NCBI GenBank assembly: GCA_037951105.1
Contig: JBAMJV010003946.1
Coordinates: forward strand, 1 to 64,000
Source of the DNA: Echinarachnius parma
Lineage: Eukaryota > Echinodermata > Echinoidea > Clypeasteroida > Echinarachniidae
Length of the DNA stretch: 64,000 nt
Reading direction: 5' to 3'
Below the pieces are notes generated by a model. It had not been told where the DNA came from, ran no database searches, and was given only the letters and a program-made list of their open reading frames with translations. Positions 11,601-63,252 of this stretch are shown here, in pieces; the first letter of the stretch is position 1, and each line of letters opens with the position of its first letter. The translations under genes were made by a program, and so were the position numbers.

Positions 11601-14600
11601 TTTTATTTATATATCGTTTGGCTAGACGATATCTTGACCTTTTTTTCAAACAAATTCAAAAGAGGTTTTAAATAGTTGTTGATGATAGCTCTATTTATTA
11701 CCATCACATGCACAATTTTGTATGAAAAATGGTTGAAACCAATGATTTTTTAGAGAGCGCCCTCTTGAGTTGTAATGGATATTTTTGAATGATAACCAGG
11801 TTTTTATTTAGTCGTTTGTAATTTTCTATACCTTTCGAGCATGTTGGAGTTATAATTAATTTGTACTGTAAGGGTGCAGGTTTTGGTTAATAAAATTAAG
11901 TTTGACCGAAACTCAACTATCCCTTTAATTGACATAATATGCTAAACATACGTCCGCCGGTATAGTTCGTTGTCCCTTTCATATGTTCATTTGCAGAACC
12001 ACTGCCACCATATATCTCATCCACGTAGCTGTCAGCACTTGTCACAACATATAACCGTTGTAATAATCAACACCAACCATTATAATCATCACCATATTCA
12101 CTGTCATCAAATCATGTTAAAACATTACTCATTACATTGTTCTTTACCGTTAATATAAAAATATGATTTGAGTTTGATTTTGATTTAATTGTCGCATTTT
12201 CCCCTTCAAAACAAGTATTAGTACTATCGAGGCCATCGATAGGAGAAACCATAATACCGTTTTGTCAACATCATGCGAACGACCCATCCCCATCGTCTCA
12301 ATATCTTGCCGTTATCATCGATCACCGTCGTCATCGTTCCATGAACACAACCCATAACAGTCTTTACTCCACATTTTATCTCTCTCTCTCTCTTTCTGGA
12401 CTGTAGTGAACGTGACGCTAAGGAGCGGGTTCTCCTTCGAGGGCTTCATCACCCAGGCTCCTATCGTCATCATATGCCTGCCGTTATCATCGATCACCGT
12501 CGTCATCGTTCCATGAACACTACCCATAACAGTCTTTACTCCACCTTTTATCTCTCTCTTTCTGGACTGTAGTGAACGTGACGCTAAGGAGCGGGTTCTC
12601 CTTCGAGGGCTTCATCACCCAGGCTCTAGCTATCGTCATCATATGCCTGCCGTTATCATCGATCACCGTCGTCATCGTTCCATGAACACAACACATAACA
12701 GTCTTTACTCCACCTTTTATCTCTCTCTTTCTGGACTGTAGTGAACGTTACGGCGAGGAGCGGGTTCTCCTTCAAGGGCTTCATCATCCAGGCTCGCATC
12801 CAGCACACCACGTTCCCTGTCGGTATCTTCAGTACTATTCACTCCGATGACGGGCAGAAAATATACTGCGATAACGGGTTTAATGCGGCGAACACCATCA
12901 CACACACGAGTAACACCGAGAAGACCGGACTCTCCGTCGTGTGGACAGCGCCAAATAATATCGCGGGGGCGAAGATTGAATTCGTGTAAGTTGAAATAAA
13001 AATTGAAAATTGAAATTGAAACTGAAAAGGTATATCATTCGCAGCCAAACGGCTGAATTTTAAAAAGATAGTAATAACACATAAACATGGAGTAATAGAA
13101 ATTCTGCATTTGAATCAATCAAAAACGGATACATTTTTGTTTTAAAGGGACTTAGTAACATTGTCCAAATCCTCAAAACTTACTTGGAACTCTAGTGGTT
13201 CTCTCATGTATCTTGTCAACAATAAAAGCACGGGACAGGTTTCGGTTTTTCAAATTTCCATTTTGTTCAAAAGATATTTACCATGTTTACGATTGAAGTG
13301 TTCAGATGAAATGATGAACATCTCAAGTGTCAAGTTTGAAAAGCATACAATTTTAATCACAGAATAATCTTTATTTGATCAAACTCGGTTCAGATATGGC
13401 TGAAATATCCATACACATTTGAAATAATTGTGGGACCCCACAATTTTCGATAAAATTTTGAACCAGCCGTAAATTTTTTTTTTAATGCTTCCTCTTTTCA
13501 AAAATGTACAAAAGAGGTTTGTAGATAGTTGTTGATTATCTCTCTATCTAATCACTATATTTCAACAAAACATCACATGCACAATATTTTATTTTAATTG
13601 GTTGAAACCAATGAGTTTTTTAGAGAGCGCCCTCTTGAGTTTTAACGGTTCTTTTTTTAAATAATAACAGGCTCTTTACTTAGCCATCATTCCCTTTGAG
13701 CATGGTGGAGTAATAAATATTAGTTTGTAAGGTTAATTAATTGTGCAGGTTTTGGTTACTAAAATTCAGTTTGACCAAACTGTACTCTCTTTACCAAAAC
13801 TCAAGTATCCTTTTAAACTGTCTACGGGATAATGTAAGCCGTGAACAAAGTGCAATGAGTTAGTGAATACCACTTTGCATTTTTGCTCATTTCTCGGCCA
13901 AAAAACATCCAATTAACGTGAATTGTTCACACATTACTTTGTGGACATATCAGATCACACCAATACACATTTTATTAATCACTCATCAATGTTTGCACTA
14001 GTCAACAAAGTTACTAGATCCCTTTAATCATACATGTAATTATATTATTTTGTTTCTAATTTTTACAGGGGCACCTTCGTTCAGCAACGCAACACGTTCT
14101 GGGTTGGTGTCAAGTCGGCTGTACTAACAGGTAAGTGGATAACGCATATCGATTGATCATCGAGAATCACTCTGTCAACACTCACCTATAGATACGATTG
14201 GGGGGAAATTATTAGATTTTTTAGAATAGATCGTGTCCTGTCAGTTTCACAGACACCCGGTCCGGTCATCAAACTGCACTGTATTTTCACCTTGACTTTT
14301 GCCGCTACATTGAAAATGTAAACTATGTGTATAGAGACCCAAAATCTTGCCAATAGTCCATGCTCGCATTTATAAATTCACCGACAGTAAAGGTTATTAT
14401 AAAGAATATTAGTTCCAATTCCATACTGTCTATATTTGGGATATTGGTATGCAAATCGTGTCTGTCAATGCGCTCCGGGTACTATAGGAAGCAAGGAGTA
14501 TGGTTACCTTGGATGGCATGTCATAACTTACTAACCTAGCTCTACAATGGGCAACTATTTGTTTTGTTATTATAAACAATATGGCAATATCATTGGAAAT

Positions 14601-23600: not shown

Positions 23601-26600
23601 GCCTTTGTTCGATCACAATCTGTGCGCTGGTCACGCAGTGGTCACGCACAGCAACGTGGTACTCCGTGGAATGCGCCATGATCAAAATTTTCGCACCGGG
23701 TGAATACTCGTATAATGCACAATTAAACGTGCTGTGTCGTTTTATTATTTTGAGGTCTATAACTCCACGAAAAAGAGATTTCAAGCCCTAATTTTTTCAG
23801 GCATGCTATTAAATGAGATTTTCTTTCATATAAGACAATAACCTCGCAAATTTGTCTTGCAAAAGTCGGACAGTCCCTTTAACGTAGAAGATCTTTGAAA
23901 CGTCACGTCAAAGTAGTAAGTTGATCGTGTGAATATAACGTTTTTTGATTAACCATTATTATGATGATGTCTAAATCTGCAGAGTCTGTGCCTCGGTGTA
24001 ACCAGAACTGTCTGAATGGAGGGACCTGTACCGATGGAGTATGCATGTGTACTCCTGGATATGGTGGACATCTCTGTGAACAAGGTATGTGGTATACCAC
24101 TTGCCATAGCCTTTGAATGTACCACCATGTATGCAAGTGTAACTCTATTTGGAGTATCAATGTGTGGCATGACAGCTATTTATTAATGTGGGTAATACAG
24201 TCAAACATGTGTATAATGACCACCCAAGGAAAACAAGAATATTGACCACTGTAGACAGGTGAACTTTATAGATGGGTTTCATTAAATTGTTTTGCTCTGT
24301 AAGCTAGGGCTCACTTTTGGTGGCCACTATGAACAGGTTGGCTGATATAGACAGGTGGCCTCTAAGGCAGGTTCTGTAGTTCCAAATAATATCAGGCAAG
24401 CCAACTGTGTCTGACTTAGAAGTGGTAAGGTTATTATCTGATTAAATTGGTAAGTTATTTAGAATGATTTCTATTTTTTTTTTCTAACAAAAGAATGTCA
24501 CGTCACTGATTCGATACTCTTGCACAAATATATTATGCTATAAGATTTCCATGGAGAAAGACAAGTAAGTTTTTATGAGACATTGTCAACAAAATTTGGA
24601 CTCTATACATAAAAACACAACAAATATAGATGGCTATAATGTGTTGAGTTTTAGATCCCACATGAGGAGAACTATTCACTTTAAAACTAATCAAATTTGG
24701 CTACATCCAATCAAACTTTGGCTTACATTGTATAATGATGTATATGATAATATTCCTCTCTATTCATGTCTGCTTTGTAACCCACACAGACTACAGACCA
24801 CGCTTCACGAATTGTCCAGAGGGCGAGACCCTCATATACGCCTTGAACCAAGACAGCAATGTGGCTACCATCGACGTCGACACCATTGGTGCCACAAACT
24901 ACGAAGGCCTTGTTTCCCTCCCTGTCAACTTTGTCGAGGGCCCGGACATCAACGCCATATCATCGTTGACATTCTCCACGGAGTTTGCAGAGGGACAGGA
25001 TGTGGTGGCCCGAGCAGTGGATGGTCAAGGAAGGAGCCAGGAATGTAGCTTCACCATTCGCTTAGAAGGTGAGACTTGATTCTAAAGTCAACCATGCAAT
25101 GATGCAGACCTAAAATTGTAACAATATATGTTTTTATGCCTCCGCAACGAAGTAGCCGGAGGCATTATGTTTTCGGGTTGTCCGTCCGTCCGTACGTACG
25201 TACGTACGTCCGTACGTCCGTACGTCCCGTTCTCGTGATCGCGTTATCTCAAGAACCGATTAACGGATTTTCACCAAACTTGGGTCATGTATGTATCTTG
25301 GGGGGCCAATGATCTGATTAGATTTTGGGGTCATGAGGTCAAAGGTCAAAGGTCACAGAGCTCATTATATATGCAAAAATAGCTCGTGATCGCGTTATCT
25401 CAAGAAGGGATTGACAGATTCTGACCAAACTTGGTACATGTATGTATCTTGGGGGGCCGATGATCTGATTAGATTTTGGGGTCATGAGGTCAAAGGTCAA
25501 AGGTCACAGAGCTCATTATATATGCAAAAATAGCTTGTGATCGCGTCATCTCAAGAACGGATTGACTGATTCTGACCAAACTTGGTACATGTATGTATCT
25601 TGGGGAGCCAATGATCTGATTAGATTTTGGGGTCATGAGGTCAAAGGTCAAAGGTCACAGAGCTCATTATATATGCAAAAATAGCTCGTGATCGCGTTAT
25701 CTCAAGAAGGGATTGACAGATTCTGACCAAACTTGGTACATGTATGTATCTTGGGGGGCCGATGATCTGATTAGATTTTGGGGTCATGAGGTCAAAGGTC
25801 AAAGGTCACAGAGCTCATTATATATGCAAAAATAGCTCGTGATCGCGTTATCTCAAGAAGGGATTGACAGATTCTGACCAAACTTGGTACATGTATGTTC
25901 CTTGGAGAGCCAATGAACTGATTAGATTTTGGGGGTCATGAGGTCAAAGGTCAAAGGTCACAGGGCTCATTATATGTAAAAGTAGCTTGAGATTGGAAAT
26001 CTCAAGAACTGAATATCAGATTTCAATCCAACTTGATACCTGAATGTATAATAGGGAACAATTGTAGTCATTAGACTTTCGGGTCATGAGGGCAAAGGTC
26101 AAGGTCACTTATAGCTCATAATTGTGATACGTCAAGATCTAAAATCAAAATTGAGTTGACAGAATTAATTCTGTGTACATGTTGATTTGGGCTTGACATA
26201 AATCAATTGCGTAATGGCGGAGGCATCATTTTCGACTGCGCGCAGTCGAAGATCCATCTAGTTTTTTAACCATTTTTCTAATGCCGCCTACCATTTTGAT
26301 GTCTTCACTATATTTGTTTGACGTGATAACTATTCTAAATTTAATGAATTCTGACATGCAAGTAACACTTCCCAAATTGAATCATAAGGAAACATTCATG
26401 CATGATTGGTGTTTGAATGTTACCGTTTCCAACATTGTTTGATAAAAGCAGTTATCACTTGTCAAGCTAGGAGACCACAATGTCTATAGATGCAAATGGA
26501 AGTTACCTGACCGGATCCTGAGGTGGTGGACAATGCTAAGTGATGGACCCATTTCTAGTTAGGACCAAATATAGCCATTTAAAAATGTTGCTTCCAACAG

Positions 26601-58556: not shown

Positions 58557-58783
58557 TCAACACGACCCGCCGTGCATCCGCAGGACGCCATTAACATGTA
58601 ACTGCAGTAGGAGATTGAACTCGTGGTCCATACTGTGATGCTTGTTGTCCGTGTACATAAGGTCGTCGAAGTAATGGTAGGCGACGTCGATCTTCTTGTC
58701 GTCATATCGAGAATAGAATGGCCAGAAGCCATACAGGTGCACCTCCTCACAGAGCTGGATCGCTGTCATCGTCAGGTACAAGC
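58557..58783 (-). CDS. Sialyltransferase last exon
   Basis: Acceptor CCTGTATATAG|GCTTGTACC; 75 codons and TGA. It contains EEVHLYGFWPF, YHYFDDLMYTD, HSMDHEFNLLLQLH and ends GGSC. The first 17 exon bases with the acceptor are copied many times in the adjoining intron. Confidence 0.87.
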
Positions 58784-61700
58784 CTATATACAGGGAGGGA
58801 CATAGCCAAGTTACATCGTCAGTTACAAGCCTACAAGGAGGGACATAGACAACTTACATCATCAGGTACAATCTTACAGGGAGGGACATAGCCAAGTTAC
58901 ATCGTCAGTTACAAGCCTACAGGGAGGGACATAGGCAACTTACATCATCAGGTACAAGCTTACAGGGAGGGACATAGCCAAGTTTCATCGTCAGGTACGA
59001 GCTTACAGGGAGGGACATAGCCAAGTTACATCGTCAGTTACAAGCCTACAGGGAGGGACATAGGCAACTTACATCATCAGGTACAAGCTTACAGGGAGGG
59101 ACATAGCCAAGTTACATCGTCAGGTACAAGCTTACAGGGAGGGACATAGCCAAGTTACATCGTCAGATACAAGCCTACAGGAAGGGACATAGGCAAGTTA
59201 CATCGTCAGGTACAAGCCTACAGGGAGGGACATGATATAGGCAAGTTACATCGTCAGGTACAAGCCTACAGGAAGAGACATAGCCAAGTTAACATGGTTA
59301 CCATTATCGACCCGTCTTGATAAGTCAGGGGATTATAATGTTTCGCCCTAATAGTTATTCTTCCCGTTTTTTACCTGACAAGCAAAAACAAAAAATACAA
59401 AATTGGGAGCAGGTCTTCGCCTCTTTGATGGCCGAAAACAATAATATTTGTTTATGGTTAAGTCCGAAAAACTCATTTCCCCCGAAAATGACAATGAATT
59501 TGTCTAATATGACATAGAATCCCCGCAAGACATGTTGTCCTAATTAAGGTGCTTTATGCCCGAATGTGTCCGTTTTCAATTCTCCCGGGGGGGGGGGGGG
59601 GGGGCATCCTCATCCTCCAGTCTCCTTCGCCTATGTTTGTATTGATTTGAATCATTTGATTTCAGTCCAAATTTAAAGAAGGGCAATTCCACGGTAACGG
59701 AAGGACATTCAGACACAATTTTGGAACTTCAATCAAATAATTCCAGGATCCTACTTTTGATTTTTTATTCTAAATGGCATGTCTTTGATCCTTGTTGGGA
59801 CACCTTTGATTTCCACTATTTCTAAAATTTTGACCGCATTATGTAAATTAGATATGGACACTAATGAGGCCGGTAACGGAAGGACGCCAAAATGGACATG
59901 GATTTTCAATTTTTTTAGTTATGACCCAATCTCCGTGAAGTTACGAGGTTTATCATGTTAAGTTGGCTACTAGTCAATTTCCTTATGTTCACAGAGTATA
60001 ACACCACCTTTTAAGAAAAATATCTACATTGGTATATTAATTATGAGAAATTAATTACTCCAGTGTTCGGTAACGGAAGGACGGTAACGGAAGGACCTCT
60101 GAAAAGTCTATTGGAATTGTACAATAAAATTAATTTTGAAATGTAAAGACCATTTATGAGAAGGAAACATCTCTTTTGTGGTCTAAAATGAGTTTGTATC
60201 ATAGATAGCATATGTGACCTTACACCACAAAACGACCAATAAGTCGGGGAAACTGATTGTGCTGCTTTTCATAAAACATTAAAATAGAAGTCATTACCTT
60301 TAAAATGGTATATCATTCGTCACATTTGGACTAAGCAAACCCTCTCAAAATGAACACCAAAGATTTGGAATATGGCTGAAGCATTTTTAAAATAAGGGAG
60401 AAACGGGCCATTTAAAAGATCAGTTTCCATTAAAGCGCTGTAATAAGATCACATTTATTAGATGAAAAAATAATATTTAAACATGATTTCCGACCCTCAA
60501 AATGTTACAGAAGCTAGATTAAAATATGCTTATTCAGGAAATACCAAAATCCTAAATCTCATATTTTGAACAAAATTTGATTATTTTAGCTAATAAAAGA
60601 GAAACTACCACAGCGACATAACGGTCGTTTTGTGGTGTAAGGTCACATATGGACATCACAAGCAGTTACATTTCTATTTTTTTCTTACTATATTTCATGC
60701 TCCAATGGCTCTTATTCATGGTCAATCCATGGTAACGGAAGGACACTCAGACACAAATTGTCAACTTTAAGAAAGACATTTTTAAATACTTGTGTTGTTA
60801 GAACAGTCTATTTTGATAACAATACTTCCAAAACATACAGTTTTAAGGTCCCATAATTTTTATTTTTTTAAATCTCCGCACAATATTGAATATGCATACA
60901 AATGAGGTCGGTAACGGAAGGACACTAAAATGGACGAGGTTTTGTTATCAAATCAGTTTTAACTAAAACTCTGTGATATTAAATAATACAAAATATTTTA
61001 AGGGTACACATTTCATTCTCTGAAGGGTTAAGAAGAATTTACTTGTTCTTTGATTAAAATTTGTCCACAGATATTTGAGTTATTTCACACAAAGCGGACC
61101 AATGTTCGGTAACGGAAGGACATAATGGACTATAATGTATGATATGACACAGTAGGGTCATTCCATGTCAAATCACCTTAAAAAAAATAATTTTTAGAGT
61201 TTGTTTTGCTTAAATCTTGGCTTGATATAATTACTACAACATATGAAAGAATTGGAGATATGTTATTTCTTGCTTTTTCTACAGCCTTGTTTTTAGTTTG
61301 CAAATTTCATGTAAAATTTAATTATTTTAGACCTACACCCATGTCCAAGAATTCTATAGGGGTGTATTGTATAAAAAAAAACCTATTCAAAGTCATGATC
61401 AGAGCCTATTCACACCCTGGCTCACCACAGTTAAATAGACCTACTAATCCCCATACAATAGAAATCCAGACAAATGGCATCATGGTACAAGGGCCCTGTT
61501 GCAGAAAGGGATAAAATCAATTGTGAGCCAGATCAAATGTTCTAAATGCACAAATCTGATTGGTTGAAACACAGAAAATTACTAGTCTGACCACGCTACG
61601 CCACTGATAGCTGGCCATTGCAGGTATTGTCTCATTATTTGGGGTTTTCATATATGAGAGACAAATTTTTGAACATAAATTTTGTCATAATATGTAATAT

Positions 61701-63252
61701 GAGGTACCTTGTCCATCTGTTACCATGTGTATGGTAACGGAAGGACATTTTCTTTTGTTATTTATTAATTAACGAAGAAACAATGAGTAATACAATTGTT
61801 AGCAATGGGAAGGCCTACTTGAACTTGCTTTGCACTGAAGATTGGTCTGCTCTCTAACAATTATGTGAGCCACAAAATTAAAAATATTGATTTTTCGGTA
61901 ACGGAAGGACATTTTCATAGGCTGAAAATAAGAAGTCATTGAAGCATAACAAATCAAATAAATCATAAAAATTTACTATTTTACGAAATGGTCATATCTC
62001 AGGAGTCAGAATAATGGTTTTTAGGCTTAACTGGGGAAATATAAAACAAACACAGGATCAAAACACTTTTTCACAAAAATGTCAAATTTGTGGGGTTCAA
62101 TTATGGTTATAAAGTTATTATAAAAAAAACAACTAAAATTATGTAAAACTAAAATGTTCTCATTGAATTCCAAAAATATAGAATTTAAGCTTTGATTTGA
62201 TACCAAATTTGTATCATAAAAATGCTTGTAAATGTTTTGGTCAAATGTCCACTTTGGCGTGGAATTGCCCAGAACGTGATATAATCATTTGTTTTAGAAT
62301 TTGTTATATTTAACGCGCCTGGAGTTAATAGTGTATTTCTCGCCTCTTAATTATATTTTAGAAGCTGGGCTAAACATTCATAGACTATAGGACGTCACGA
62401 TCGAGGGCAAATTTGTACTCTTACATAACCAATGCAGGCCATGGTATACAGTGAGCTTACTTATTGGGGGGGGGGGGGGGGGGGGAAGCATGCTCATCGT
62501 TTTTATTTTGGTTGGTCGCACATACCCACCGAATGCAGGTAAGGACGCTGAGATTGCAAACATGTTGATTGAACCCTTTAAACATATCGCCCCCTGGGGT
62601 TTTTAAAACGGCCATATCCGGGCAAATTTAGCACCTGAAATTCGGGCAAATCATGTCATATTCGGGCAAAACCGTCTCATATTCGGGAAAAATCGTATTA
62701 TTTTGGACTGTAGACAATGACATTATGTGAATATCGGGCATCAAAGAGGCGAAGGCCTTTGTTCCCCCTTTTGTTTGTTTGCTTGTCAGGTGATTCGGAC
62801 AAGAGACCTAAGCCCCCTGATGAGACCGTGTCCCTACGCACATGCCTTGTGAAGCCTTCGGACTCTGATCATACTAGTCCAGATACCACATTGAAATAGA
62901 AATTAAAATTGATCTATATTTCAGTAGTCAATAGCAATACACAACGTAGTGCATACAAATTTAAGAATTATATTTACGACTAAGAATACAACAATAAAAT
63001 AATGCAAATTTGTTACCTGTTGTCAACCGGTGCACGTGACCCCTCGCTTTCCAGAAGTCAGTTAAGACCTTCTGGTGCGTAGGGTTGCCACAGACCAGCT
63101 TGGCTTGTTTCCCTTTGTATGACTCCATGGCAGTGGTGCAAGCGTTTAGCCAGCGTGGCATGGCAAAGCATGGCATGAAGATGAGACCGTTGAATTCTGC
63201 AAGGGCTGCGTTGAATTTTTGGACGTCTGCCTCGGTCTTCAGCTTGTCGTAC
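58557..63252 (-). CDS. GT29 sialyltransferase (ST8Sia-like), last two exons; partial
   Basis: Exons 63017-63252 and 58557-58783 join in frame to encode the last 154 residues of a type II Golgi glycosyltransferase that transfers sialic acid from CMP-sialic acid to glycans. Seen: sialyl motif S (LTTGLYLTMTAIQLCEEVHL then YGFWPF, spanning the junction), motif III (HYFDD), motif VS (HSMDHE, H-x4-E) and a terminal Cys, which family knowledge links to a disulphide in ST8Sia enzymes. The stem, membrane anchor and motif L must lie beyond 64000. The ST8Sia assignment over other GT29 subfamilies is inference. Confidence 0.85.
58784..59290. repeat. 43-bp minisatellite made from the sialyltransferase splice acceptor
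   Basis: About eleven tandem units of 41-49 bp. On the minus strand each reads CCCTCCCTGTAG followed by GCTTGTACCTGACGATG (variants allowed) and TAACTTGGCTATGT. The unit therefore repeats the real acceptor (CCCTCCCTGTATATAG) and the first 17 exon bases. Two higher-order unit types alternate in part (CATCGTCAG against CATCATCAG). Confidence 0.9.
59681..62270. mobile_element. DNA transposon family E, copy 2 (2.6 kb)
   Basis: GGGCAATTCCACG at the left, CGTGGAATTGCCC at the right, AGAA directly repeated on each side. Nine copies of GGTAACGGAAGGAC, all in the same orientation (near 59693, 59874, 60069, 60083, 60733, 60912, 61108, 61735, 61897). A second inverted pair GACCTTACACCACAAAACGA / CGTTTTGTGGTGTAAGGTC spans about 60210-60650. 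A truncated small MITE sits at 61491-61575. No transposase frame. In the last intron of the sialyltransferase gene. Confidence 0.78.
63017..63252 (-). CDS. Sialyltransferase penultimate exon
   Basis: 236 nt. Acceptor CATGCTAAAG, donor ACAACAG|GTAACA. It reads YDKLKTEADVQKFNAALAEF, then the LIFMPCF stretch and FWKARGHVHRLTTG, the lead into sialyl motif S. It enters with two bases supplied by an exon outside the window or unrecognised here. Confidence 0.83.

Follow-up and report, generated by a model that had tools for sequence, protein, structure and literature searches.

The minus strand of the analyzed window, by which we mean the whole stretch of 64,000 nt, carries the end of a GT29 sialyltransferase gene, and a minisatellite with a 43-bp unit lies across the acceptor of its last intron. 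The features at this locus, together with a second array on the opposite strand, are the following:

58557..58783, minus strand: last exon (coding part with the stop) of the GT29 sialyltransferase gene, behind the genic acceptor AG at 58785-58784; Pfam PF00777 match, 75-codon open frame.
58784..63016, minus strand: last intron of 4233 nt, phase 1, with the donor ACAG/GTAACA (GT at 63016-63015; the slash marks the splice junction); read from the sequence, the joined frame giving GT29.
63017..63252, minus strand: penultimate exon, ends set by eye from its acceptor and donor; alone without a Pfam match.
58767..59291, minus strand: 43-bp tandem array of 12.0 copies including the genic acceptor copy, with 11 decoy acceptors; from TRF, unit lists and a pattern search against shuffles.
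59020..59105, minus strand: adjoining unit pair of a higher-order repeat, recurring exactly 129 bp on at 58891-58976; from pairwise unit identities.
59266, 59218, 59175, 59131, 59088, 59046, 59002, 58959, 58917, 58873 and 58831, minus strand: G of the AG of each copied acceptor.
12292..12795, plus strand: second acceptor-spanning array, 169 bp in 3.0 copies across a Reeler exon start; from TRF and the Reeler profile PF02014.

The last exon alone is recognized as PF00777 (Glyco_transf_29; E = 7.2e-14, 52.3 bits against a cut-off of 23), and when it is joined to the penultimate exon the GT29 match reaches 73.6 bits (E = 2.3e-20, cut-off 23). Two solved-structure sequences are matched by the exon, both of an alpha-2,8-sialyltransferase. 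The position and phase of the last intron are common to 24 of the 25 paralogous loci examined (L010-L033), the exception being L037, in which the AG is absent at the shared intron position. Compared with its best-matching paralog, the exon shows 16, 16, and 31 differences at the first, second, and third codon positions, respectively, with all 75 codons open. Among the open reading frames listed up to the end of the 66.7-kb contig, no upstream exons were recognized; one reading frame in the upstream contig stretch resembles, by eye, another reading frame of the window. In the assembly that we searched (1.2 Gb, 14,790 contigs), the GT29 last exon has 40 matches, some of them partial and several falling within one exon, which represents a large expansion of sialyltransferases.

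The initial annotation had proposed an acceptor-derived minisatellite with a 43-bp unit and about eleven copies at this junction, and this proposal is borne out: TRF reports a period of 43, 12.0 copies including the genic one, 87% matches, and a score of 780, and the unit, read on the minus strand, joins 26 nt of the intron end (TAACTTGGCTATGTCCCTCCCTGTAG) to 17 nt of the exon start (GCTTGTACCTGACGATG). The genic intron end as first given was corrected to TGTATATAG, and the genic acceptor thus reads TGTATATAG/GC, four bases longer than the TGTAG of the copies. A pattern search with one unit, allowing up to three mismatches, yields eight matches in the window versus none in 100 dinucleotide shuffles. 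The 17-nt exonic part agrees exactly with the genic exon start in 3 of the 11 copies, with one difference in seven and with two differences in one. The array crosses the last intron/exon junction of the gene, which is the boundary position characteristic of the minisatellites termed mirages.

Pairwise comparison of the nine regular units revealed that units 3 and 6 are identical, as are units 4 and 7, and that the mean unit identity is higher at lag 3 (0.94) than at lag 1 (0.89); such identical unit blocks, 129 bp apart, are a sign of recent block exchange within the array. At the edges of the duplication, ATG occurs both in the left flank, ACCATGTTAAC, and in the exon, ACGATGACAGC, which suggests, short of proof, that the duplication may have originated at microhomology. 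With a 701-bp query laid over the array (40 of 67 candidates scored, very common words skipped), no second copy of the array was found in the assembly; 40 of the 41 matches fall at query positions 626-701, in the flanking stretch, and the remaining match is the locus itself. Next to the array, the segment 59325-59400 constitutes a dispersed repeat, for which the genome has at least 40 further matches. The derivation of the array from a dispersed element is unsupported, only the flanking stretch being dispersed in this search. A second allele of the array locus, searched for in the assembly with the 701-bp and last-exon queries, was not found.

The AG is kept in all 11 copied acceptors, of which six read TGTAG/GC, and five read TGTAAG/C or TGTAAG/A, the AG of the latter being displaced by one base and the frame therefore shifted. 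Read on from the penultimate exon, each of the 11 runs into a stop 2-6 residues on (after GLYLTM in three cases, after GL in another three, and after three residues of the shifted frame in five), so that the use of a decoy would, as initially claimed, cut the protein short where the last exon begins, in a region that we take to be motif S in the sialyltransferase nomenclature. The wider claim that any upstream choice runs into a stop stands for all copied acceptors but not for every AG. Three extra AGs with poor tracts lie inside GTAAGT; two of them lead to a stop after 21 residues, whereas from the third (G at 58853) the frame remains open as far as the true stop, with 23 residues added (98 vs. 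75). Among the twelve unit-type acceptors, by frame reading, the complete enzyme is obtained from the genic acceptor only.

The motif CTGAC or CTGAT, a match to the branch-site consensus, stands 31-36 nt before 10 of the 11 copied acceptors, and at the genic acceptor the distance is 35 nt; since it was copied with the exon start, exon sequence became a candidate branch site through the duplication. In the leftmost copy, TTAAC is found 23 nt upstream of the acceptor. An AG intervenes between motif and acceptor in three copies (59046, 58917, and 58831), all of the TGTAG type, and 7 of the 10 intervals are AG-free.

Acceptor strength was scored with a positional weight matrix (PWM) based on 16 non-redundant acceptors from 23 paralogous loci, a small set from one gene family, after seven near-duplicates were dropped and L025 was excluded because of its lack of upstream sequence. 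Of the 184 AGs in intron and last exon together, six decoys take the first to sixth ranks (scores 10.3-12.8); another four decoys score 3.2, the genic acceptor ranks 27th (1.1), and the eleventh decoy ranks 32nd (-0.1). When the paralog acceptors were left out in turn, 14 of the 16 ranked first, one second, and one, that of the best-matching paralog L010, 17th (of 88). With the three exon columns removed from the PWM, the genic acceptor ranks 25 of 69, and the left-out acceptors come first in 10 of 16 cases. The PWM is usable despite its small size, and a low-scoring acceptor occurs in at least one further family member. Three decoys (59266, 59218, and 59175) combine a strong tract with an AG-free branch-like motif. 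Given such decoys and the low genic score, clean use of the genic acceptor is not predicted by the sequence alone, and leakage to the decoys, with a truncated enzyme as its product, is plausible.

The initial annotation had also pointed to a second acceptor-derived array in the window, and the array over the Reeler exon is indeed of this kind: about 54 nt of exon are included in its repeat along with the acceptor, and the AG is retained in all three copies. Elsewhere in the genome, the GT29 paralog L028 contains a 186-bp array of 2.2 copies (positions 1184-1597 of that locus) over the acceptor of the same intron; its complete upstream copy reads AATG versus the genic AAGG, thus the AG has been lost there. 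A survey of arrays with a period of at least 15 and a TRF score of at least 100 identified 3 of 55 exon starts as spanned, or 1 of 53 when the two index cases, found before the survey, are set aside. For GT29, 2 of 25 acceptors (index included) are spanned, versus a flanking coverage of 4.4% (3.4% minus the spanning arrays), in a set that keeps near-duplicate paralogs as well as L025, whose upstream sequence of 6 nt is too short to reveal an array, and that omits L034-L038, where the match begins elsewhere than at this acceptor. For Reeler, with the start of the profile match standing in for the exon start, the proportion is 1 of 30 (the index case) versus 3.1% flanking coverage (2.6% minus the spanning array). 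Ten further GT29 and four further Reeler matches, for which no locus was cut out, are omitted from these counts.

Within the window, such arrays occupy 2460 of 64,000 bases (3.8%). Exon starts are spanned at about the rate of flanking coverage, with no sign that acceptors are special targets; the targeting of acceptors, considered as a separate explanation, is accordingly unsupported, and two acceptor-derived arrays in one window represent no clear excess. A further tandem array of the window (25232-26108, 151 bp in 5.8 copies) lies where no exon was recognized. At another locus than that of the 43-bp array, two near-identical GT29 contigs, L020 and L021 (1509 of 1618 aligned columns), which are either alleles or recent duplicates, share a 228-bp array that covers the end of the exon and continues past it, in 2.6 and 3.6 copies, respectively.

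Tandem repeats of this anatomy have been described in lancelets under the name of mirage minisatellites, in Adh3, the globin genes BflGb6 and BflGb9, and troponin C, with similar repeats in PGBD5; regular splicing is reported as undisturbed (PMC3087553, PMC3902484), and the copied signals are considered able to act as cryptic sites (PMC3087553). The present array resembles the amphioxus mirages in its position over an intron-exon boundary, in its copied AG and GT signals, and in the exchange between its units. Amphioxus mirages keep many, not all, of the copied splice signals; here the AG is kept in 11 of 11 copies and the GT at 10 of 11 junctions. The unit is 43 bp with 11 decoys here, compared to 150-160 bp in BflGb6, with six and three units in two haplotypes, and 10-72 bp in Adh3. 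Unlike in the lancelet cases, the genic acceptor scores below its decoys, and the array is known from sequence rather than RT-PCR. The host in the two papers using the term is a cephalochordate and here probably an echinoderm, a matter of lineage and not of kind. The echinoderm assignment follows from the mitochondrial contig of the assembly, where one AAA codon read as Asn, three AGA as Ser, and 17 ATA as Ile yield conserved residues in cox1, and where the genes are ordered cox1-trnR-nad4L-cox2-trnK. Turri et al. are said to have described in 1995 a minisatellite with multiple splice donors in human 6-16/IFI6; a splice site is likewise multiplied there, although donors take the place of the acceptors. 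Among open-licence PMC papers, we found no report of echinoderm mirages; the array is a further member of the known mirage kind, probably in a phylum for which we found no reported case.

We consider, with a probability of about 0.72, that the array is a mirage-type minisatellite that arose by chance duplication, was expanded by unequal exchange, and has no dedicated function, the genic acceptor being mainly used. The structure and derivation of the array, the block identity within it, the intact exon, and the coding outcome of each AG are directly established. The history would have begun with a short tandem duplication comprising 26-30 nt from the end of the intron and 17 nt from the beginning of the exon. 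Three bases of microhomology, ATG, may have been its site (ACC-ATG-TT in the left flank, ACG-ATG-AC in the exon), and the duplicated unit would subsequently have grown into an array by unequal exchange. The array would be neutral, splicing would proceed mainly at the genic acceptor, and the copy number is expected to vary between individuals. Chance duplication is suggested by the composition of the unit from the intron end and exon start of this very gene, and by the Reeler and L028 arrays, which cross acceptors in the same genome with different unit lengths (169 and 186 bp). The lancelet mirages of the same anatomy, reported to have no effect on regular splicing, argue for neutrality (PMC3087553, PMC3902484). 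The position of the genic acceptor below six decoys, and four more, on the PWM is evidence to the contrary. The lancelet phenomenon would hereby extend to what is apparently a further phylum of deuterostomes, represented by three cases in a single genome, which suggests that mirages are a random product of an array-rich genome and not of a process directed at splice sites; the locus provides a natural test of how the spliceosome chooses among twelve near-identical acceptors.

Alternatively, the array could act as a splicing rheostat, in which the repeat number, via the competition of decoys with a weakened genic acceptor, sets the proportion of truncated, inactive enzyme and thereby the amount of active sialyltransferase in each individual. 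Six decoys that clearly outscore the genic site, the branch-like motifs and their largely AG-free intervals, and the early stop behind every decoy are consistent with such a role, which we nevertheless regard as unlikely, since an AG separates motif and acceptor in three of the six TGTAG decoys, and the lancelet mirages are reported to leave splicing undisturbed (PMC3087553, PMC3902484). As another possibility, the array and the weak genic acceptor could mark a sialyltransferase copy that is being lost, for which the many last-exon matches, some of them partial, leave room for redundancy. The exon is intact, however, with differences mostly at third codon positions, and this possibility appears quite improbable; the absence of recognized upstream exons says little here, since the contig ends there.

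The exonic part of the units supplies potential donors as well. A GTAACT donor in each unit, as initially described, is present at 7 of the 11 junctions, while three have GTAAGT and one has lost the GT (GAAACT); the potential microexons, initially given as 14-15 nt, measure 16 nt in TGTAG units and 15 nt in TGTAAG units (three units being read by hand). From a junction donor, the next acceptor is 27-32 nt away and the next but one 70-75 nt. Recursive splicing through an AG/GT ratchet was dropped as a candidate because the copied acceptors read AG/GC, AG/CT, or AG/AT. Intron birth under way, with new introns no shorter than about 70 nt between the junction donors and downstream acceptors, would exploit these donors, but introns between adjacent units, at 27-32 nt, would be too short, and each microexon contains a stop or shifts the frame. 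There is a precedent in the RdRp gene of potato, where the tandem duplication of an intron-exon boundary gave rise to a real intron; a GTAAG donor is likewise available in the exonic segment there, with the branch site, tract, and AG coming from the intronic part, whereas that case involves one duplication and a proven new intron, in contrast to the many copies here (PMC4974935). We rate intron birth as very unlikely. Finally, a misassembly of the repeat number or of the entire array, of which the two identical unit pairs and the apparently aberrant assembly of one lancelet mirage in a draft genome, mentioned in PMC3087553, might be taken as signs, is extremely improbable, as the nine regular units otherwise show identities of 84-98% and both edges of the array pass into single-locus sequence of this gene.
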